Origin: Candidatus Endomicrobiellum calonymphae
Lineage (GTDB): Bacteria > Elusimicrobiota > Endomicrobiia > Endomicrobiales > Endomicrobiaceae
NCBI GenBank assembly: GCA_031269945.1
Contig: JAISYK010000007.1
Location: 174,255-238,254 of the forward strand
Direction of reading: 5' to 3'
Length of the DNA: 64,000 nt
Of this stretch, positions 4,629 to 43,172 are shown piece by piece. The notes beneath the pieces were generated by a model. It was not told the origin of the DNA and made no database searches. It saw only the letters and a list, made by a program, of their open reading frames with translations. Within the stretch, counting starts at the first letter, position 1. Each line of letters begins with the position of its first letter. Made by a program: the position numbers and the translations under genes.

Positions 4629-5384
4629 TTATTCAAAAAATCTAATAAGTTTGATGAAAGATTCGGCTTCCAAGCTTGCTCCCCCTACCAAACCACCATC
4701 AATATCTGGTTTCTTCATAAGATCTGATATATTATCTGGACTTACAGAACCTCCATAAAGAATTCTTACTTCATAAGCAACATCTTTACTGTACATTTGC
4801 TCATATATTTTTCTTATGAAGTGATGTATTTGTTGAGCTTGGTCTGGAGATGCAGTTTTACCTGTCCCTATGGCCCACACAGGTTCGTAAGCTATGACTA
4901 GTGAAGATGCTTGTCCCAATGTAAGTCCAAACAAACTTTCTCTTATTTGCTTTTCTATAACCTTAGAAGTCATGTTACTTTCTCTTTCTTTAAGAGTTTC
5001 TCCTACACAAACTATAGGCGTAATAGTGGTTGAAAAAGCTGCTTTTGTTTTTCTATTTACGATTTCATTAGTTTCGACAAAATATTGTCTGCGTTCTGAG
5101 TGACCTATTATAGCGTAAGAACAACCTATATCTTTTATCATTGTTGGAGAAATTTCCCCGGTGAATGCCCCTTTTAATTCCCAAAAAAGATTTTGTGATC
5201 CTAAATTAATATTTGAACCTTTAATTTCATTATTTACTGCATATAGTGCTGTAAAAGCAGGACAGACCAATATTTCAACATTTGTTACATAGTGAACCAT
5301 ATTTTTAAGTATTTTTATGAGTTCAACAGATTCTGAAACAGTTTTATTCATTTTCCAATTTCCTGCCATTAACGGCTTTTTCAC
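4629..5384 (-). CDS. tpiA: Triosephosphate isomerase (GTG start)
   Basis: MAGNWKMNKT, YAIIGHSERRQYF, AYEPVWAIGTGKTA, YGGSVSPDN, GLVGGASL. Confidence 0.96.
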   Translation of the reverse strand: MKKPLMAGNWKMNKTVSESVELIKILKNMVHYVTNVEILVCPAFTALYAVNNEIKGSNINLGSQNLFWELKGAFTGEISPTMIKDIGCSYAIIGHSERRQYFVETNEIVNRKTKAAFSTTITPIVCVGETLKERESNMTSKVIEKQIRESLFGLTLGQASSLVIAYEPVWAIGTGKTASPDQAQQIHHFIRKIYEQMYSKDVAYEVRILYGGSVSPDNISDLMKKPDIDGGLVGGASLEAESFIKLIRFFE

Positions 5385-6582: not shown

Positions 6583-7944
6583 TTATCTTTTAAGATATTT
6601 TTCTATTTCTCTTGCTGCTCTCTTTCCCATACCCATTGCTTCTATAACGGTAGTTCCACCAATAATGTCTCCTCCTGCGAAAATACCAGGTAGTGAAGTC
6701 ATGAGACTATTATCGGTTATAACATATCCGCTGGTGTCGGTAATCAAACCGTCAATAAGTGATGGCAAAATCGGATTTGGATGTAAACCCAAAGCCAAAA
6801 CTACCATGTCTGCCTTTATAATATAATTAGATCCAACAACTTTGTGAAAATATCTTCTACCTAAACTATCAATATTTGCTAGTTCTATTTTTATACACTC
6901 AACGGCTTTAACGAATCTTTTTTCATTTCCGATGAATTTCACTGGACTTGTCAAAGTTACAAACTCTATTCCTTCTTCTTTTGCATGAATTTGCTCTTCT
7001 TCCCTTGCTGGTATTTCGTCTTCGGTTTTTCTATAAACGAGTTTAACATTTTCTGCACCAAGCCTTAGCGCTGTTCTAGCTGTATCCATCGCGGTATTCC
7101 CTCCGCCTATAACCACTACATTCCTGGCTCTATATACAGGCGTGTCATAGCTAGGAAAATCGAAAGAATGCATAAGATTTACCCGCACTAAAAATTCATT
7201 TGCAGAATAAATGTGATTCAAATTTTCGCCTGATATTTTAGGAAATATAGGAAGTCCAGCACCAGTAGCAATAAATACAGCCTTGTATCCCTCATCAAAT
7301 AATTCTTTTATTGTTTTCGTTCTTCCTATAAGGACGTTTAAAATTATTTTCATTCCAAGTTTTTTTAAATTGTGTAATTCCAAATCTAGAACATCCTTAG
7401 GTAGTCTAAATTCAGGAATTCCATAACGTAAAACTCCACCAACGTCATGTAAAGATTCGTAAACTGTAACATCGTATCCAATTTTTAACAGCTCCCCGCC
7501 ACACGTTAGGCCGGCTGGCCCAGACCCTATAACAGCAATTTTAATACCATTTTTGTTAATTGCAATATTTGAATTATCTCTAGTGCTAGCATCTGCTGCG
7601 TATCGTTCTAAATTTCCAATACTAATACTTTCATTTCTTTTTGATAAAACGCAAAATTTCTCGCATTGATTTTCTTGAGGACAAACTCTGCCACATACTG
7701 CAGGGAGGTTGTTTCTCCGCCTTAAAACTATTGCAGCTTGTTTAGGATCGTTTTGAGTAAGATATTTTATAAACCCAGGTATATCAACTCCAACAGGACA
7801 ACCACGAATGCACAACGATTCCTGACATTGAAGACATCTTTTTGCCTCTTTTAGCATTTCACTTTGAGTATAACCACAATTTACTTGTTCGAAATCTTTT
7901 TTTCTAATATTTGGATCCCTCGCGGGCATTTTTATTTTTTGCAA
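6583..7944 (-). CDS. NADPH-dependent glutamate synthase small-chain-like / NfnB-type (SudA) FAD-NAD(P) oxidoreductase
   Basis: 453 aa; N-terminal CLQCQESLCIRGCPVGVDIPGFI cluster, CGRVCPQENQCEKFC, GSGPAGLTCGGELLKIGYDVTVYE, GGGNTAMDTARTALRLGA, FAGGDIIGGTTVIEAMGMGKRAA. Confidence 0.9.
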   Translation of the reverse strand: MQKIKMPARDPNIRKKDFEQVNCGYTQSEMLKEAKRCLQCQESLCIRGCPVGVDIPGFIKYLTQNDPKQAAIVLRRRNNLPAVCGRVCPQENQCEKFCVLSKRNESISIGNLERYAADASTRDNSNIAINKNGIKIAVIGSGPAGLTCGGELLKIGYDVTVYESLHDVGGVLRYGIPEFRLPKDVLDLELHNLKKLGMKIILNVLIGRTKTIKELFDEGYKAVFIATGAGLPIFPKISGENLNHIYSANEFLVRVNLMHSFDFPSYDTPVYRARNVVVIGGGNTAMDTARTALRLGAENVKLVYRKTEDEIPAREEEQIHAKEEGIEFVTLTSPVKFIGNEKRFVKAVECIKIELANIDSLGRRYFHKVVGSNYIIKADMVVLALGLHPNPILPSLIDGLITDTSGYVITDNSLMTSLPGIFAGGDIIGGTTVIEAMGMGKRAAREIEKYLKR

Positions 7945-20743: not shown

Positions 20744-21276
20744 TTATTGCAACTTTCTTAATATATTTTCGATTAGAAGGAATTCATTCAAATGGGCAAA
20801 TCTAAAATATTTCAAGAAATTTGGTGGCGTTGTAGCATAAATATTGGTTCCTCTAAGACTTTTTTTCTGATAATTGTTTTTGTCATTTTTTTTCAAGCAG
20901 ATCATCTTATATATGATATCAGAAGATTTAACTACTATAATTCCGTCAATTTCAGCTCCTTTTGTGGCTTGTTTACATGCGATCATAGCTCTAGAATTTC
21001 AAGGGCTGAAGAGAATAATCCTAACATATGTTTCTCTTTAAGAAATTTTTTTATCCACGGAGTATAATTTTAGTTTGGAAGCAAACATCCAACCGGTTAC
21101 TACAAATTTGACTTCATATGGACTTACTTGAGTCCATTTAAAATATTTTCAAAATTACCTATATTAACACTAACACAATTTTCTTTTATTACTTTTCTCA
21201 ATTCTTTTAAACTTTAAGTCCCTTCATAAACAAAAAATAATGCCTCTAAAATTTGCTTTGCTTTAAACACTTTCAC
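20744..21276 (-). pseudogene. scpB: Decayed scpB (segregation and condensation protein B)
   Basis: Fragments in different frames in the right order: VKVFKAKQILEALFFVYEGTL / LKELRKVIKENC / YEVKFVVTGWMFASKLKLY / (A)MIACKQATKGAEIDGIIVVKSSDIIYKMI / RGTNIYATTPPNFLKYFRFAHLNEFLLIENI, matching ScpB ILEALLFvsgEPL, AiiAYrQPiTraEIe.IRGVds and GRP.lYgTTpeFLeyFGL blocks. Confidence 0.85.
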
Positions 21277-23609: not shown

Positions 23610-25412
23610 ATGGAAAGGAAGTCCCGTGTAGTAGTTGTCGGAGCAGGGCATGCTGGCTGCGAAGCTTCTTTAGCATGTGCAAAATTGGGGGTGAAGACTC
23701 TAGTCATAACACTCAGCGTTGATTCGATAGCAAAAATGCCATGCAACCCAGCTATAGGTGGAATTGCAAAAGGACAGATGGTTAGAGAAATTGACGCTTT
23801 GGGTGGAGAAATGGGAAAAGTAGCCGATCGTGCAGGCTTACAATTTAAAATGTTAAATAGCTCAAGGGGTCCGGCAGTTTGGTCTCCAAGAGCACAATGC
23901 GACAAAGAGCTTTACTCAACCTTGATGTCAAAGTCTCTTCAAAATCAACCAAATCTTGATATATTGCAATCCGAAGTTAAGTCTTTAATAGTAAAAAACA
24001 ATAGAATATGTGGAGTAAGGATCCTTACAAATGAAATAATATATGCAGAAGCCGTAATAGTAGCTACAGGAACTTTTTTAAGAGGGAAAATACATCTCGG
24101 TAAAGTACATTTTAATGGCGGAAGATTTAATGAACGACAAGCATCATACCTTTCAGAATCTCTTACTAAAGATTGTGGAATAAAACTTGAAAGATTTAAA
24201 ACAACCACTACTCCAAGGATCAATGCCATCTCAATAGATTACTCAAAAATAATAGAACAATTTGGAGATGAAAGGCCCATACCTTTTTCTCACTTCACAG
24301 AAACTGAAAAATGGAGAAAAAACCTCAAGCAGCTTTCATGTTGGCTTACTTACACTAATGAAACAACACATAAAATAGTTAGCGACAATTTTGCTTTCTC
24401 ATCTATTGATATAGGAGAGGTAAATAGCAAAAGTCCCAGATATTGTCCTGCTATAGAGGAAAAAGTAAAACGTTACCCTGAAAAAGCAAGTCATCACATT
24501 TTTGTAGAGCCAGAAGGTTATAATACTAACGAAGTTTACTTGAATGGACTCTATACTGGACTTCCGTTTGATTTGCAACAGCAAATGATAAATTCGATAG
24601 TTGGCCTTGAAAATGCTAGAGTAATAAGGTATGGATATGCTGTTGAATACGATTACTCAAATCCCTTGCAAATAAAAAAGACCTTGGAAACAAAAACTGT
24701 TAAAGATCTTTTTTTGTGCGGGCAAATAAACGGAACAACAGGATATGAAGAAGCAGCAGCACAAGGTTTTATTGCGGGTGTGAATGCTGGACTTAGAATT
24801 TTGAATAAAGCTCCGCTTATACTTGGGAGAAATGAGTCTTACATAGGAATACTTATAGATGACATAACTACAAGGGGTATGGATGAGCCTTATCGAATGT
24901 TTACTTCTCGAGCAGAATACAGACTTTCAATAAGAAATGATAACGCGGACTTAAGACTCATGGATATAGGAAAATCAATTGGCTTAATATCAGGTAGAAT
25001 ATATAAAAAATTCGAACTTTATAGAAACACACTAAAATATATATATGAGGGTAAAAAGGAAAACTTGCCAAGCAATGATGATTTATTGCCATGGTCCTTT
25101 GAAAAAGCAAATAAAGAAATTTCTATTTACAAAAAATATAAAGGTTACATTGAAATTCAAAATAAAATGGCAAGTAAAGTAAAAAAAAATGAAGATCGCA
25201 AAATTCCTGAAAGTTTTGATTATAATAGACTTGAATCACTATCTGCGGAAACAAAGCAAAGACTTTTGAAAATTCGTCCTCAAACAATAGGACAAGCTTC
25301 TATGATACAGGCAATAAAGCCATCTGATATAGCAGTATTAATTGTCTATCTTGAAAAACAAAAAAAAGAAAGAAAGAAAAGAAAATATGATTTTAATAAT
25401 ATAAGTCAGTGA
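23610..25412 (+). CDS. mnmG: tRNA uridine 5-carboxymethylaminomethyl modification enzyme MnmG/GidA
   Basis: [123 protein letters not shown]. Confidence 0.98.
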
Positions 25413-25496
25413 TTCATCAATAAAACCTTTCATTCATATGCAAATACATAATTCTTTTGAATATATAAAGTATTTTACTTAGCGAGGGTGTAAAGA

Positions 25497-25779
25497 ATGT
25501 TTTCCTTGGAAATAGTAGGATTTTTTGCTGGATGTGTTTCTACAATATCTTTTGTTCCTCAGGTCTATAAGACACGGAAGACAAAATCAGCTGAAGAGAT
25601 TTCAATTGAGATGTTTATCATCTACACGATATCTCTTTTGTTATGGATAATTTATGGAAAAACACTTAAAAAAACCAGCAATCTATGTACCGAATTTATT
25701 AGTTCTTATTCTTGCTTCTACTCAGATTATTTTGAAAATAAAATATGATAGAGAGAATAATTTCGAAAAAAAACAATAA
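25497..25779 (+). pseudogene. SemiSWEET/MtN3-type sugar transporter, frameshifted at an A7 tract (pseudogene or programmed/slippage-corrected)
   Basis: MFSLEIVGFFAGCVSTISFVPQVYKTRKTKSAEEISIEMFIIYTISLLLWIIYGKTLKK in frame 1 (PQ-loop motif); after A7 at 25668-25674 the next frame reads PAIYVPNLLVLILASTQIILKIKYDRENNFEKKQ* to 25779, completing the third TM helix. The annotated 83 aa ORF instead ends TSNLCTEFISSYSCFYSDYFENKI. Confidence 0.85.
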
Positions 25780-26100
25780 AGTAAATAAAATTATAACAAG
25801 TTTTTTTTATTGCAGTTTTTATTTTCGTAATAGCAAATTTTTTTGCTGTACAAGGATCTGGCTATCGAAAAGATAGTTTGAAAAGATTAAAACTGAAGTT
25901 AGTGAAATGATAAAAAGTTGCACTTCTGAAACAAAAAATTAAGAATATGAAAAAAGAAATCTATTTCAGAAGTTAAAATATCAAAAAAAATAAATCGAAA
26001 GTCATAATGAACAATGTGAAAATTTAAGTACAGATAAAGTAGAGTTATACCATAAAAAAAGAAATGAAAAAAAATTCAATAAAAAACATTAAAGATAGAA
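25780..26100 (+). pseudogene. Remnant of a small secreted/TM protein
   Basis: NKIITSFFIAVFIFVIANFFAVQGSGYRKDSLKR followed in another frame by KIKTEVSEMIKSCTSETKN; no intact ORF. Confidence 0.35.
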
Positions 26101-26103
26101 TTT

Positions 26104-26895
26104 TTGTGTTGTTATCATGTAGTTAGCATCCAAAGACCATTTATGGGAAATAAAGAATTATTCAAAGAGTTTCATAATTATGTCAAAGAAAACATCGTAT
26201 CATTTTTCTCAAGAAAAATGTGTCGAAAATTTAAGGTATATTTTTATGAAATTAACAAGTGGAGAAATGTACTCAACCTCATTTCAATCAAAAACGAAAA
26301 AGATATAATATACAGACATTTTTGCGACTCTCTGTATAGTACAAAAGCTATAAATAATATTACGAATAATAAATGTTCGTATTTAAATATTGCAGATGTT
26401 GGAACAGGCTCAGGAATGCCTGGTATACCAGTAAAGATTTCGCTTCCCAATATTAAACTTACCCTAGTTGAATCTATAGCAAAAAAATGCAACTTTCTTG
26501 AGAATATAAACGATAAACTTGAGCTCAACGCAGAAATACTAAATAAAAGGGCTGAAAGAATAGGGCAGGATTTACTATATAGACAAAAATATGACTTTGT
26601 TTTATCAAGAGCTGTGAGCAAATTTTCCACTAATCTTGAAATTTCAATACCTTTACTAAAAGTCGGTGGGTATTTTATAGTTTACAAAACAAAAAAATCA
26701 ATGGAAAACTTTAAAAATGGAATCCCATCGATAAAAAACGCTCTTGAATGTCTAGGTGCAAGATTTGAACAAGCAATATTCTACGATTTACCTGAGCAAA
26801 AACTAGATTATTGTATTTTAATTTTCAAAAAACACAGAAATACTCCACCTCTGTTCCCTCGTAAAGCAGAAATATTCAAGAAAAATCCTTTATAA
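26104..26895 (+). CDS. rsmG: 16S rRNA (guanine-N7) methyltransferase RsmG/GidB; start probably at 26143 (MGNKELF)
   Basis: NKWRNVLNLISIKNEKDIIYRHFCDSLYS, NIADVGTGSGMPGIPVKISLPNIKLTLVESIAKKCNFLE, FVLSRAVSKF. Confidence 0.9.
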   Translation: MCCYHVVSIQRPFMGNKELFKEFHNYVKENIVSFFSRKMCRKFKVYFYEINKWRNVLNLISIKNEKDIIYRHFCDSLYSTKAINNITNNKCSYLNIADVGTGSGMPGIPVKISLPNIKLTLVESIAKKCNFLENINDKLELNAEILNKRAERIGQDLLYRQKYDFVLSRAVSKFSTNLEISIPLLKVGGYFIVYKTKKSMENFKNGIPSIKNALECLGARFEQAIFYDLPEQKLDYCILIFKKHRNTPPLFPRKAEIFKKNPL

Positions 26896-33659: not shown

Positions 33660-33753
33660 TTTCTAATTCACTTTTTAAGGGGCAACCGTGATTATAACAT
33701 ATTTTTGATATTTTAAAATTCTCACTATAATTTTAACAATAAACTAAATACAC

Positions 33754-33961
33754 TCAATTATTTTTATGATCTTTAATAAGCTTACTTAGAATAATCTTTG
33801 CTTTTTGATAATCAGGATCAAGCCTTAATGTATATTCTAATGTTCCCTCAGCTTAAAATTATTCCCATTGCACGTAAAATAAAAAAGCTCCTATGGGGGT
33901 ATAATCCTCATTAGCAGCTATTTCGGCATATTCGAATCCTTCTTCCATAATTTTTAGGTTA
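33754..33961 (-). pseudogene. Decayed TPR-repeat protein fragment
   Basis: GFEYAEIAANEDYTPIGAFLFYVQWE*F*AEGTLEYTLRLDPDYQKAKIILSKLIKDHKNN*: TPR-like LEYTLRLDPDYQKAKIIL with two stops. More fragments continue toward about 34700. Confidence 0.5.
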
Positions 33962-36550
33962 AAAACTATTGTTTTTTATTTGTATTTTTAGATAATTCAC
34001 AGGTTTGTCTATGTATTTTCTTGTCTATATGTATTTTTTTTCGCTTTATCGCGGTATCCTAGAATTTTCTAAAATTATTTTCGCTTACAAACTTTTTAAA
34101 TTCCTCAATTTTTTACACTTCGCATCTATCTTTATAAATTATACTTTTCAATTTCAATTTTAAACATTTTTTTTTGATTTTTCTCCAAGTTCTATCTTTT
34201 TTTTCTTTAATTTCTTAAGTCCTAATTCTCGTATTTGTTTTTTTATATACTCTTTTATTCCTTTTGTTCCATCTTAAAAATCTATATATATACTCTCTCC
34301 ACTCAACGCATTCTCATAACATGCTTCGTGGCAATCATATGACCTTTGTGCATGAATGATCCAGCTCTCTAAAACTCGATAAACAGAACAAACTATTTGC
34401 AGTTTCTTTCATAATAATTTACAATTTCTTTGTAAAAATGCCGTAGAAAATTTAGTGTAACCTATATTTGTGATAGCACATCCAATAGTTTTTAAGTACT
34501 CTCTTTTATTTCACAAATGCTTTACAGCTTTGAATTTTTATTTCATATACTTGCTCAAAATTAACCTTTTCCTTGATAAAAATCTGATTTAATTCCCTTT
34601 TGAAATTTACTAGAGCTATCAAACAGCCATCTATAAATTTATTTATTAAACCCGTTTTAGAAAAATCGAAAGTGTAATTAAATGTTAATGAATAAAAATT
34701 TATCCATACACAAAAAGTAAAATTTTAAGGATAGTATCCGACATACAAAACATGTTTATTTGTATTTGTAATAACATAAACTAAACCAAGATAAAAACTT
34801 GTAGACCACCTTTACAATATGTTATATCAACGTAAGTATTTATTTTACTATCACGATACACTGTGATAAAATAAAAGCAGAGCCAAATCCACAAATTATC
34901 GGTATTTGTTCTATAGTGTTATCATTATCTTTCGGTTTATTTTTAACATTGGGAATAAAGTTTCGAGCCGCTACTTTTAACTTTATTCTAAAAATATTGC
35001 TAGTAACATCAAAAATTTTAAAAACCAACAACAAATGAAATGCACACTTATGATGCAAATCATAATACACATATTTAGTGCTCAATCCACAATAAATATT
35101 TAAGTAATCTATACAACTTGCAAAAGATAAAATATGGACGAACTTATTCATCTTAATAAATTCTATTTATATCTATATTATATTTTTACCTTAGAAATTT
35201 AAGATATAAGTATACTAAGTGAAATCTCATTGCCTAAATCTACTGTAGTTGAAATTGATTTACAAGAAGAAGTTTCTCTAAACATATTAAACATTGGAAA
35301 ATCTATAACATTATCGCTGAAAACGCTAAAACGATAGATGATTATAATGCGAGCCCGCTGGGATGGATATGTAGTAAGCAGTAGGCACGCTCTGGGAATT
35401 GGGCACGCCAACACCAAGCAAAGCCACACTTAAATTAACACCACAGTAAAAAAATATTTTTCTCTTCCAGATTTACTATAAGAAACTTGAATGGTTGCGG
35501 TTACAAAGACAAGTGATAGAACTAGCGTGAAACAATGTACCATATCGGTTTTTAAGCAAGTTTATATTACCCCCCCCCCATTGCAAAGGAAAATAAATCA
35601 CTTACACTTAGCACAAGTGTAATCTATCATGTTACTGTTACAAAGAAAATCGTGGTTTGCAAAAATTTTACAAAACTTCCAAAATATCAATACCCGGTAC
35701 TTTTTACATAATTTTCTAAACTATTATTCCCCGTATCAACGAAAAGTACAATAAAATTTAGTCTATTAGGTAGGTTACCAGATCACATCAATTTTTTATA
35801 ATAATTTAAACAATTCAAATATGAAGCAATTGCTTTTGCTAAAAGCTGACGCAACACAAACTATCAACGTGTCAGTATTAGTTCACAATACCTGCATACT
35901 TTACAAATGCTACAATTTCTAAAATTGACTAACTAAAATTATGCTAGTTTTATTTTATTTTCTAACCCTTTTAACTTTACAAAATTAATATTCCTACGGC
36001 CATTCGCCCCCAAATGATCTAAAATCCCATACTTTTCACATAATATTTTTTAATTAATTTAAAAGCCTTTCACTCTTTCCTAAAAAGAAGTTTTATGAAA
36101 AATTAATAAAAGCTCTTAAAGTTTAAGTCTGACCGCAGAAAAAAAACCTACAGCAACGCTCATATTTTACATTAGTATTTTTAAAGAAATATTTTTTAAA
36201 AATCTTTTTTCAGTTTTACATATTCTATCAACATTGCTATTATACGCTATATCTTTCTTATTCCTACTAAAAAGCATCACAATTTTGGCATTGGGGGGGG
36301 GGATTTTTTTTTCATTTTTCTAAAAAGTAAAGTTGAAATTACAACATTCCAAATCTTATAATTGTGTCAAAAAAAAATACCCTAATTTTATTAATACATA
36401 AAACCTCAATAGACTCACTTTTTATCAAAAAATTTCTTCATCAAATATTTTTCAAATAAAGTCTATTGCCAATTTTATATTTTAAATCTAACCGCTCAGC
36501 GTTAATTTTTTATTTTTAGATAATCGTACCGTATAAAGAGTTATATAAAC

Positions 36551-37726
36551 TTAAATTTTATTTTTGAATTCTTGTCTTAACTCATCAATTTTGTTTACTT
36601 TTTCCCAAGTAAAATCTTTTTCATTCCTCCCAAAATGTCCATAAGCAGCAGTCTTAGAAAAGATAGGCTTGCGAAGTTGTAAATAATCCGTAATACCTTT
36701 GGGAGTAAGCGGAAATATCTTTTTTACAACAGGCTCTAACTCTAATCCTGAAATTTTACCAGAATGATGCGTGTCAATCATTATAGAAACAGGGTCAATC
36801 ACCCCAATCGCATAAGCAAGTTGCACCGTACATTTATCAGCTAGACCTGACGCGACTATATTTTTCGCAATGTGTCTCGCCATGTAACAAGCACTTCTAT
36901 CAACTTTAGTTGAATCTTTCCCGGAGAACGCCCCACCACCATGTGCAGCCATTCCGCCGTAAGTATCAACTATTATCTTTCTTCCAGTAAGACCAGTATC
37001 TACCGCTGGCCCCCCAAATAAAAATTTGCCAGTAGGGTTTATATATATTTTTGTATCTTTATCAATGAGATGCTCGAGTGTAGGTTCAATTATATTGTTA
37101 AAAATCTCTTTTTTAGATTCATTTGTTATATGGTCACCTATCTCATCTAAAATTTCTTTAGTGTGCTGTGTTGACAAAATAACAGTATCTATTCTTTTAG
37201 GTTCCCAATCTATATATTCAACAGTTATCTGGGTTTTTCCATCTGGTCCTAAGTAGGGTAAAATATTTTTCTTTCTTACTTCAGAAAGTCTCATCGCAAG
37301 TTTATGTGCCAAAATTATAGGCAAAGGCATAAATTCAGAGGTTTCTCTACATGCAAAACCTATCATCAATCCTTGATCACCAGCTCCCCCAATGTCAACA
37401 CCCATGGCAATATCCGGAGATTGTGCGTTTATGGTGTCAATTATCGCACACATATTATAGTCAAATCCTAACGACAAACTATTATAACCTATTCTTTTTA
37501 TGGCATCTTTTATAATATCTCTCGTGTTAATTCTTGCAGTTGTAGTGATCTCTCCACCTACAATAAGTAGGCTTTTGGAAATAAAAGTTTCGCAAGCGAC
37601 TCTTGCATTTACGTCTTGTTTTAAAATCTCATCCAAAATAGTATCAGAAACTATGTCACATACCTTATCAGGGTGACCTTCTGTAACAGATTCAGACGTA
37701 AAAAAATAACCACATTTGCCTAACAT
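36551..37726 (-). CDS. metK: S-adenosylmethionine synthetase
   Basis: [76 protein letters not shown]. Confidence 0.97.
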
Positions 37727-38900: not shown

Positions 38901-39252
38901 ACTCCCCCCATTTAATGTCAACTTTTTACTCTGCTCTAATTTTTATAAATCATGTTAATTAATGCTAATTTTCAACCTCACTATCTTCAAAATCGTTAAA
39001 TTTTAAGCTAACAGTTAAATCAAAAGTTACTACATATTTACAACATCAATAAGAAACTGATGTATATGAATCATCACTAAGGTGTTCATGGCACAAATAC
39101 TTTAGTAAATTATATCTTGTTTTATTTTTTTTATTATCGCATAAGTCCTATTGCCATATAAGTGAAAACAGCCCGCAGCACCTCTACCATTTTTAATTTT
39201 TTAAGTGAAAATAGAATAACCCAGTTTAAGAATTAATATCGAAGAACTTTTT

Positions 39253-39411
39253 TTATAAGTATATACGACCACAAAAATTTACATCATAATAATTTTCTCT
39301 AATAAGCAATTCTAAATCTAAATATCCTTCCATTCTAGCTATTTTATCAAGTCTCTTAGATAAACAAGGAAAATATTCATAATATTTAAAATAATGATTA
39401 GTATAAGTCAT
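39253..39411 (-). CDS. Short hypothetical ORF (52 aa), translationally coupled (TAATG) to an upstream decayed frame
   Basis: MTYTNHYFKYYEYFPCLSKRLDKIARMEGYLDLELLIRENYYDVNFCGRIYL*; ATG overlaps the stop of upstream KLVIAENILDHYKYITDHRKDCRHEVTEKFIERLGLEGVA*. Confidence 0.35.
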   Translation of the reverse strand: MTYTNHYFKYYEYFPCLSKRLDKIARMEGYLDLELLIRENYYDVNFCGRIYL

Positions 39412-40390
39412 TACGCTACACCCTCTAACCCTAAACGTTCAATAAATTTTTCAGTGACCTCGTGTCTACAATCTTTTCTGTGATCAGTAATATATTTGTA
39501 ATGATCTAAAATATTTTCTGCGATAACCAGTTTTATCTATTTATTGGGAACTGAGTTAAGGACTGTGTATTAGCCCCTATGTCTTTACATAAAGGGAACG
39601 CCGTACGACCCGTATTAGCCTTATCCAAAATAAAACTAGATGGAATTTTGCAAATCGTATCAGCTCCTAATTCTATTAACTTCTCAATTAAAGTATTTGA
39701 AAAACGTGGTAGATAAAATATATGATTCTTAACATATTTATCCATACAACCATTAAATATACATGACAATTTTTATAATTTTTATTCAGATAAAGTCTCT
39801 GGATACCCTTAGATTTAATTATTTTAAAAATTTCATCAGAAAGAATCAAAAGCTCACCATTTCTCAATTCAACTTTCTTGGTACAATTTATCACTTTAAA
39901 AGACTTTGATACATACACATACCTAAACGATAATCGTTAGTACAAGTAAAAAAGAACATACTTTTGTATATTTAAACCAGCTTTGCCCAAACCTATTGCA
40001 TCAAAAGAGATGTCATTAATATACTTAAATTTATTTGTATTTAGTACTAGATTTAACTCCAAACAAGGATAACGCAACGCATTGTTATCGCCCCTTTTAA
40101 GCATGTCAATTTTTGTCAAATAAGCACTTACAATAAAAGAAGTTTCGTAAATTGTTTTGACATTTGGATCAAATATTAATTTCCTAGTGTATCAATGTTG
40201 CAGTGTCAGTTTTTAATTTCCAAGCATTTATTCCATTCGAAAAAAATTGCTGCGACATTTTTCTGAACAACTTTTCTCTCAAATTTTAAAAACCCATTAT
40301 CGAATCCTCTAGATTTTTGGACCATACTTATTTTTGTCATCCAACCTAAAGTAGGGGCAGCACAAACAATTGATAAAAACCGTTTTATTT
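39411..40390 (-). pseudogene. Unidentified decayed gene(s), several frameshifts
   Basis: Ordered frames: CAAPTLGWMTKISMVQKSRGFDNGFLKFERKVVQKNVAAIFFEWNKCLEIKN / DPNVKTIYETSFIVSAYLTKIDMLKRGDNNALRYPCLELNLVLNTNKFKYINDISFDAIGLGKAGLNIQKY / VSKSFKVINCTKKVELRNGELLILSDEIFKIIKSKGIQRLYLNKNYKNC / CIFNGCMDKYVKNHIFYLPRFSNTLIEKLIELGADTICKIPSSFILDKANTGRTAFPLCKDIGANTQSLTQFPINR / KLVIAENILDHYKY...GLEGVA. Confidence 0.55.
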
Positions 40391-41357
40391 ATATATTTCA
40401 TGGATAATTTCAAAGAAGAGTAAAGTTAATGAATAAAATATAAGTGGAGTTATTTACAAAACGCCAATTACACAATTTAATTATCTTTAAGGCTTATTTT
40501 TGCAACGAACATGCCATTTATGTGAGACAAAACTAAAAGAATATTTAAAAAAATAAAAAACCACTTGTTTTTAACACTCCCTTCCCACCTTCGTTATTAT
40601 ATCAAAACCAAATTAATTATTTTAACTGATTTAATTCACAACTGAGCTTGAAATTTTTTCAATTAAACTTGGAATGGATGTGTTACGTATGGGTTATGCC
40701 CCGATCTTATGGAATAAAGTCTTTTTATATTTTGCATTTTGTTATACAGCGTTGTTTTATAAACTTTATAATCAAAAAAATAGTTAAACAAATGTACAAT
40801 AAATGGGAGAAAGATGCTATGCTACCAAATTTATTAATTGGATAAATCCTTATCCAGATACGAAAGACTTACTAAAAGACGAAAAACAAGTTGGCAAGGC
40901 TAAGGAGGTCTATTATATACTTTCAGTATACTCTCACAGTATGTATTGGGGGGGGGTGATCGTGTATATAGTGTGTATTACTTTACGCGAGAAAGTTTGT
41001 CATTTATCACACCTCTCCCTTGCATAAAAAATATTAGCATTATAAAAATGGGGTTTGTTACTTTAAATTCAGCAATGTATATAATATCTTAACTTTTAAG
41101 TGGCGTATTTATCGACAAATGAAATGTAAGAGAGCTTCCATGTTTATAGTATTATACATTTATATATCATCCCCATCATCTGCAGTGAAGGAGGAGAGGT
41201 GATTGTTTTAATCGGATCTTCTTAATTTATAGCCTCTTCTTTTTTAGGTTTCTTCCATCATCACTTTTACTAATTTTTTATAGAGTGGTATAAAGTAATG
41301 AGCTGCAGGTTTGTTGGTGTTCTTTCAAGCAGCAAAAGAGCTTGTTGCACCGCTTGT

Positions 41358-41448
41358 GTGGTGGGTGGTGGATTGGGGTGTATAGAAAGGAGGATTGGGC
41401 GCGGTTTGCTATAATGTTAAGCTCGTTTGAGGGTGGTGGGTGGTGGAT
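41358..41448 (+). repeat. Two identical 16-bp G-rich repeats (GTGGTGGGTGGTGGAT) spaced 75 bp
   Basis: Copies at 41358-41373 and 41433-41448, read directly. Confidence 0.9.
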
Positions 41449-41589
41449 ATTATAAAAATAACTTTGCTTTTTATTTTAACAGGCAGGCAAATCTTTTGTC
41501 GCTACTTTATAGTACAAGGTATATTTTCTTCGGGTTAGATTTTTGATAAATTTTTCACAATCTCCCACACGCCTTATTTGTGTAGCATG

Positions 41590-41603
41590 CATCATGCATG
41601 ATG
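41590..41603. repeat. Perfect 14-bp palindrome CATCATGCATGATG
   Basis: Identical to its reverse complement; in the non-coding region upstream of the porin-like gene. Confidence 0.9.
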
Positions 41604-42101
41604 TACATCTGTTTTGCTTAATTTTAGATATTATATATCATGATGAACTTGAACTTATGGGGTATTGTTTATTATATTCCTTCCTCTAGTTGGGTTCTTA
41701 GTAGACGGTCAACAAAATCTTTTGTGAATTAGGTGCAAGTTTTACGTATCACACATACGCTTTTGCCAAAAAGTCTCTTTCGAAGTCGCTTGTGTAGTTT
41801 CACAGGAATGTTTTCGGCTATTTAGGTGCATCTCGTAGATTGTTAAAAAATAGGTGTGGCTTTGGTATATTTGTATTTTGTAGAATATTTGCTTAGTAGT
41901 AATTTTATTTATTGATATCACTTAGATAAAAAGGAATATCAAACCGACAATGGCTGTAAGCAATTAATTTCTAATGTACTTATTACAATTTTTTTGCTTT
42001 AATTTGCATATGATGTAATGTAAAAGGAGGAAGGTTACTTGTTAAGCAAGGTTATACTCATTTTGATAAAGCTCTAAACACATTTTAAAAATGGAGAGAA
42101 A

Positions 42102-43172
42102 ATGAATAAAAAAATAACAGCAAGTCTCCTCGTTACAATGTTGTTGTCAATTGTGTGCGTAGACAAAGTTACGTTTGCATCGAATGACTTTGCAAAAGGG
42201 TTGCAACTCAATATTACCGCAAAAAGTATATTGACTCTAAATAGACTTTACGAAGCAATATACACAATGGGCTTAGATATTTCGAAAGAATTTAAAAATA
42301 ATAATAAAATTACGGTAAGTCTTAAAGGTTGCGGCATAAACAATAACTATCCAAAAGATTTATATGCCGAAATTATATGGCAAAAATCATTTTTTGATAA
42401 TAAGCTTAATGTAAATTTCGGAAAATTTGGTTTTAGTAAATATTTCGACAAAAATAGCTACACAGGTGATGCATCCACTCAATTTTTAACAGATTTTTTT
42501 ATTTTTAACAAAACAATTGAAAGTCTTGGCGATAGGGTAGGGTTAAGGTTAAACTATACATTTGAGAAATTTGATATTGACTATGGTTATTTTAGATTGT
42601 TAGATAATAAATTTGCTAAAAATGGATTCAATGTTTTACAGATCAATTATAAACCCTCTAAAAAAGAAAATTACAGAATTTATGTATGGAAAGATGATAG
42701 AAAGTATTATGTCTGCGAAGAGAAAGAAGACGAACTTAGATGTAGATCAGGGATTTCTGGATTAGGCGTAAGTTTAGACCGTGAAATAAACAAACAAATT
42801 GGTACATTTGCCAAAGTTGGATACAAAAATCCCTTTATTGGAACAATTGTTAAAAAAGAAGGTACTGGAGACATCTCTTCATTATCGTTGCTTTGGAATA
42901 CTGGGATACAGGTTAAAAGTTCATTATGGTCTAGAAAAGACGATGTAATAGGACTAGCAGTAGGCCAAACATACAGATCATCCGATTATAAAGAACAAAA
43001 TAAATTCTCTAAGAATTACCGTCAAAAAACACAAACAGAACTGTATTATAAATTTACAATAAACAACAATTTTACAATCACCCCAGTGTTACAATATACT
43101 ATCCCAAGTGAAAATAATACTAAAAATGGCCCACTTATCTGGGGAGGCATAAGGACTTATTTTAAATTTTAA
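42102..43172 (+). CDS. Outer-membrane porin-like beta-barrel protein
   Basis: Signal peptide MNKKITASLLVTMLLSIVCVDKVTFA, alternating amphipathic strands, C-terminal aromatic residue (GGIRTYFKF) typical of OMPs; AAGGAGG-like site upstream. Confidence 0.7.
   Translation: MNKKITASLLVTMLLSIVCVDKVTFASNDFAKGLQLNITAKSILTLNRLYEAIYTMGLDISKEFKNNNKITVSLKGCGINNNYPKDLYAEIIWQKSFFDNKLNVNFGKFGFSKYFDKNSYTGDASTQFLTDFFIFNKTIESLGDRVGLRLNYTFEKFDIDYGYFRLLDNKFAKNGFNVLQINYKPSKKENYRIYVWKDDRKYYVCEEKEDELRCRSGISGLGVSLDREINKQIGTFAKVGYKNPFIGTIVKKEGTGDISSLSLLWNTGIQVKSSLWSRKDDVIGLAVGQTYRSSDYKEQNKFSKNYRQKTQTELYYKFTINNNFTITPVLQYTIPSENNTKNGPLIWGGIRTYFKF

Follow-up and report, generated by a model that had tools for sequence, protein, structure and literature searches.

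Among bacterial SemiSWEETs, the protein of Escherichia coli has a proline, P21, that acts as a hinge, and its sucrose uptake is lowered by the N66A substitution (PMC4309421). One-base shifts at A runs are known from the genes of AT-rich endosymbionts. In Blochmannia vafer, eight genes are shifted in this way, of which some are essential or common to a second species, and slippage has been proposed to correct them; the same authors point out that an unchanged rate of protein change does not discriminate between a recent break and rescue (PMC3017870). At the homopolymers of Buchnera, insertions dominate during transcription and deletions are fewer, with no case in which a frame is restored (PMC5574713). 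Lastly, gene loss during genome reduction has been described in the Endomicrobia (PMC11257099), the lineage and setting of the locus considered here; the words SWEET and pseudogene are both absent from the main text of that paper.

The window, by which we mean the whole stretch of 64,000 nucleotides that was analysed, spans positions 174255-238254 of a 238-kb contig in a draft genome of 808 kb (13 contigs, 83% complete). Its MnmG protein is closest to those of Endomicrobium and 'Candidatus Endomicrobiellum' metagenome genomes and is 83-84% identical to those of the related loci L032, L033 and L058. These bacteria are symbionts of termite-gut flagellates. Judging by this kinship and by the size of the genome, the window probably comes from an endosymbiont-type Endomicrobium relative living in a termite gut.

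The SemiSWEET gene in the window is split between two reading frames of the + strand. Translation in frame 0 from the ATG at 25497 gives MFSLEIVG...SFVPQVYKT...LLLWIIYGKTLKK, which comprises helices 1 and 2 and the PQ motif, and then an unrelated, out-of-frame tail of 24 residues; this ORF of 83 residues ends at 25748. Helix 3 and the C-terminus, PAIYVPNLLVLILASTQIILKIKYDRENNFEKKQ, are encoded at 25675-25779, in the frame one base on from frame 0, with the stop at 25779. The first 59 residues match the Pfam models PF04193 (PQ-loop, E 6.5e-12) and PF03083 (E 3.6e-6), both above the cut-off. We also built a SemiSWEET profile from 19 related sequences, with the window excluded, and searched it against all 1750 stop-to-stop fragments from the six frames of the window. 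Exactly two fragments matched significantly, one in frame 0 (E 7.7e-28, profile positions 1-67) and one in the shifted frame (E 5.6e-12, positions 57-87). The presence of the two SemiSWEET halves on either side of the A run is not due to chance, and the split reported in the preliminary description, at an A7 run at 25668-25674, is borne out in both sequence and coordinates.

When the two frames are joined, the gene resembles other bacterial SemiSWEETs in profile, PQ motif and residue numbering. In the joined reading, P21, Q22, W50 and N66 are numbered as in the E. coli protein, where they are functional residues (PMC4309421), and the SemiSWEET structures 9kax, 4rng and 4qnc in the PDB were matched by sequence. 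Unlike in the E. coli gene, however, helix 3 and N66 lie past the shift and are out of frame, and thus the gene as written encodes no SemiSWEET. Whereas 19 orthologues have three transmembrane helices in one frame, here helix 3 is in the other frame and the frame-0 tail is not hydrophobic (maximum hydropathy over 19 residues, 0.14 versus 1.98 in the other frame). Without rescue, the frame-0 product would be a two-helix fragment that lacks helix 3 and the substrate-pocket Asn, and it should therefore be non-functional and should not transport sugar.

Apart from the single homopolymer shift, the gene is clean, with no added lesion. Mean protein identity to relatives is 0.58 before the run and 0.61 after it, and the corresponding values for pairs of intact copies are 0.59 and 0.61. 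The window copy has no raised rate of protein change. This fits a working gene as well as one that broke very recently, so it does not discriminate between them, and to that extent it counts against reading the gene as a pseudogene. The combination of a one-base shift at an A run, an otherwise clean gene, an AT-rich endosymbiont and an unraised protein rate is also what has been described for the poly-A frameshifts of Blochmannia and Buchnera (PMC3017870).

The surroundings of the gene are less well preserved. In many genomes of the lineage, mnmG is followed at this locus by an EFR1-family ferredoxin gene and then by SemiSWEET, after which come a small gene whose start resembles a signal peptide, and rsmG. 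The two anchors are intact on the + strand of the window: mnmG upstream, at 23610-25412 (NCBIfam TIGR00136, 753 bits, and orthologues), and rsmG downstream, at 26104-26895 (TIGR00138, 144 bits), although the start of rsmG may be a later ATG at 26143, where the match to G001 begins. Comparison with relatives indicates that the ferredoxin gene, which encodes about 263-275 residues there and is named EFR1 by NCBIfam NF038196 in L047, has been deleted, leaving a spacer of 84 bases (25413-25496). On the other side, the small gene is reduced to rubble with stops and frame changes at 25788-26020 (+ strand; tblastn with L034 7848-8294, E 1.5e-5). The earlier statement that everything else is intact is thus right where SemiSWEET is concerned and wrong for the genes beside it. 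With the ferredoxin gene missing on one side and only remains of a gene on the other, the break lies in a stretch that is already eroding. A single tRNA-Leu, distant from the SemiSWEET locus, was the only hit when the window was scanned with Rfam and for tRNAs.

The SemiSWEET gene between mnmG and rsmG has been lost repeatedly in related genomes. Nineteen related loci retain it intact, and in others it is disrupted or missing. Intact copies are present in L034, L036, L037, L039, L042, L045-L051, L053, L059-L062 and L091, and the copy in L044 is nearly intact, with a stop just past the last helix. Ten related loci have a broken gene or none: L035, L038, L040, L041, L043 and L058 have broken copies with differing lesions, and no copy was found at the locus in L032, L033, L052 and L054. 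On the mnmG tree the window clusters with L058, L032 and L033, with L041 next, and none of the three closest relatives has an intact SemiSWEET at the locus. Counted by eye on this tree, there have been at least seven separate losses: in the window; in L058 together with L032 and L033; in L041; in L054; in L038 together with L040; in L035; and in L043. As the window copy has no lesion other than the shift, the ancestor shared by the window, L058, L032 and L033 had a working SemiSWEET. At 4640-4831, where the L038 contig ends, part of the locus is repeated in inverted orientation, perhaps as an assembly artefact.

The closest relatives show what follows such a break. The L058 copy still aligns with that of the window at the DNA level, but it has lost its start codon and has several stops and about 10 indels; it represents the next, later stage of decay. 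L032 and L033, in which the mnmG and rsmG matches are about 130 and 210 bases apart, respectively, represent the final stage. If lesions accumulate as fast as in L058, a rough estimate is that the window copy has gone without selection for less than about 0.25-0.38 of the period that has passed since the L058 copy died. In L058, rsmG is itself apparently decayed (about 7571-7720; a partial match with 48% identity, versus full matches elsewhere).

The L058 copy also helps to place the shift. There the GKTLKK frame is preserved as far as the A6 of that copy, so the A run at 25668-25674, which is exactly A7 in the window, is favored as the site over an A5 upstream of it, which we consider less likely. 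L058 does change frame at the KK-P junction, with the sign opposite to that of the window and among many other lesions. The shift seen in the window was found in no sampled relative, and the SemiSWEET alignment has no A7 at the corresponding position in intact relatives.

For a draft genome of 13 contigs, the A7 could be an assembly or consensus error, or a variant from a minority of the population, with A6 in the real gene. We consider this very unlikely. Among the genes sampled on the contig, the 71 intact orthologues contain 190 A/T runs of at least 7 bases (7-10 bases; 151 A and 39 T on the coding strand), all in the correct frame, and 71 of the 74 orthologues of the G001 contig, which holds L033, are uninterrupted in one frame. 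(In the remaining three, there is a stop at the very start of the match, the gene is heavily decayed, or the match is cut by the window edge.) Homopolymers therefore appear to have been called well. The number of runs in intact genes is near to or somewhat above that expected from synonymous shuffling, and the A7 of SemiSWEET is unremarkable for this genome. A homopolymer within the coding region of a membrane transporter might also act as a reversible switch that replication slippage turns on and off (phase variation). However, the genome has many runs of such length all over, and intact relatives lack the run at this position, which makes such a switch extremely improbable.

The preliminary description left two choices: either the gene was inactivated very recently, or polymerase slippage or frameshifting keeps it alive. 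The first is upheld by the repeated decay in the genus, the eroded neighbours and the lack of any intact copy in the closest relatives. We conclude that the window SemiSWEET is very probably a very recent pseudogene that arose by a one-base change at the A run, and the comparative anatomy of the relatives is the weightiest evidence for this. An ordinary, very recent gene loss is preferred over a special mechanism of upkeep because related symbionts have broken or deleted the gene repeatedly. We postulate that SemiSWEET was already dispensable in the lineage before the mutation, which would explain why the mutation was tolerated; that the change itself came most likely from strand slippage during DNA replication; and that the locus may be heading for deletion, as in the sister species. 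We infer both replication slippage as the cause and the absence of rescue.

The second choice fares less well. Enough full-length SemiSWEET to keep the gene under selection might come from RNA polymerase slippage on the A7 or from ribosomes that slip +1, AAA to AAA, ahead of ACC. To restore the frame, one A must be lost from the transcript (or two gained), or the ribosome must shift by +1; a -1 shift is excluded from the sequence, as it reaches the third frame and not helix 3. The clean sequence, evolving no faster than intact copies, is compatible with rescue; slippage on A runs has been proposed for Blochmannia genes with frameshifts, in a paper that also reports it for Buchnera (PMC3017870); and in AAA AAA ACC, tRNA-Lys could re-pair one base on, with ACC the rarest Thr codon in the sampled genes (106 of 1167). 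A very recent break, however, explains the clean sequence equally well. The shift is limited to the window lineage, SemiSWEET has been lost in all close relatives, and the slip required is of the deletion type, a minority class at the homopolymers of Buchnera, where no frame was restored (PMC5574713). In addition, whereas Blochmannia and Buchnera have several shifted genes, some of them common to more than one species or essential (dnaX, dnaG), the shift in the window affects a single, expendable, unshared gene with a short run.

A genome-wide habit of rescue might be expected to leave further split genes. We surveyed the 238-kb contig by tblastn with ORFs of relatives, covering genes that have relatives in the sampled sequence, and found no second clean two-frame split besides SemiSWEET. 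Other matches were old rubble, partial, spurious antisense, or with stops at the match ends. Genes with one or two stops were considered as split genes and rejected, as the stops are at match ends except for one within a 30-residue L042 match. As this contig has no further clean split, there is no sign that the genome relies on frame correction. Rescue by slippage or by a +1 shift is thus without specific support, and we regard it as unlikely.

The window has other decayed or divergent regions. A decayed gene related to that for ScpB, a condensin-type subunit (SMC_ScpB in L045), lies at 20762-21258 (- strand), with seven stops and in two frames. A heavily decayed gene with nine stops lies at 39434-40401 (- strand); in G001 (L124), where the gene is intact, it has weak matches to models for DUF2779 and Cas4-type nucleases. 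Two long AT-rich regions, 33660-36562 and 38901-42101, have no gene conserved in the G001 contig and are probably pseudogene rubble. An OprB-family porin at 42102-43172 (+ strand) is about 50% identical to its G001 copy, versus 80-90% for its neighbours.

SemiSWEET may plausibly be dispensable, and selection on it relaxed, because carbon uptake is redundant. The assembly, which is 83% complete, has no second PQ-loop protein. It has three intact MFS transporters, two of which resemble organophosphate transporters of the UhpC/GlpT type but score below curated cut-offs. Because the genome is incomplete, another sugar transporter may be missing from the assembly. In Endomicrobiellum mixotrichae, import of glucose-6-phosphate by a UhpC homologue is thought likely, as predicted in other Endomicrobiellum species (PMC12483993).

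We know of no slippage-rescued gene reported so far from an Elusimicrobiota endosymbiont, and if the SemiSWEET of the window were rescued, it would be the first described. As a very recent pseudogene, it is instead an otherwise ordinary event of genome reduction. It resembles the gene losses described in the Endomicrobia (PMC11257099) in lineage and setting, and it differs from them in that the gene appears to be at the very first stage of loss. Although SemiSWEET was suggested to be a host-interface gene, which is possible, its repeated loss indicates that it is expendable in these symbionts. We suggest that the window copy captures gene loss at its first step, and that the later stages can be seen in the sister species.
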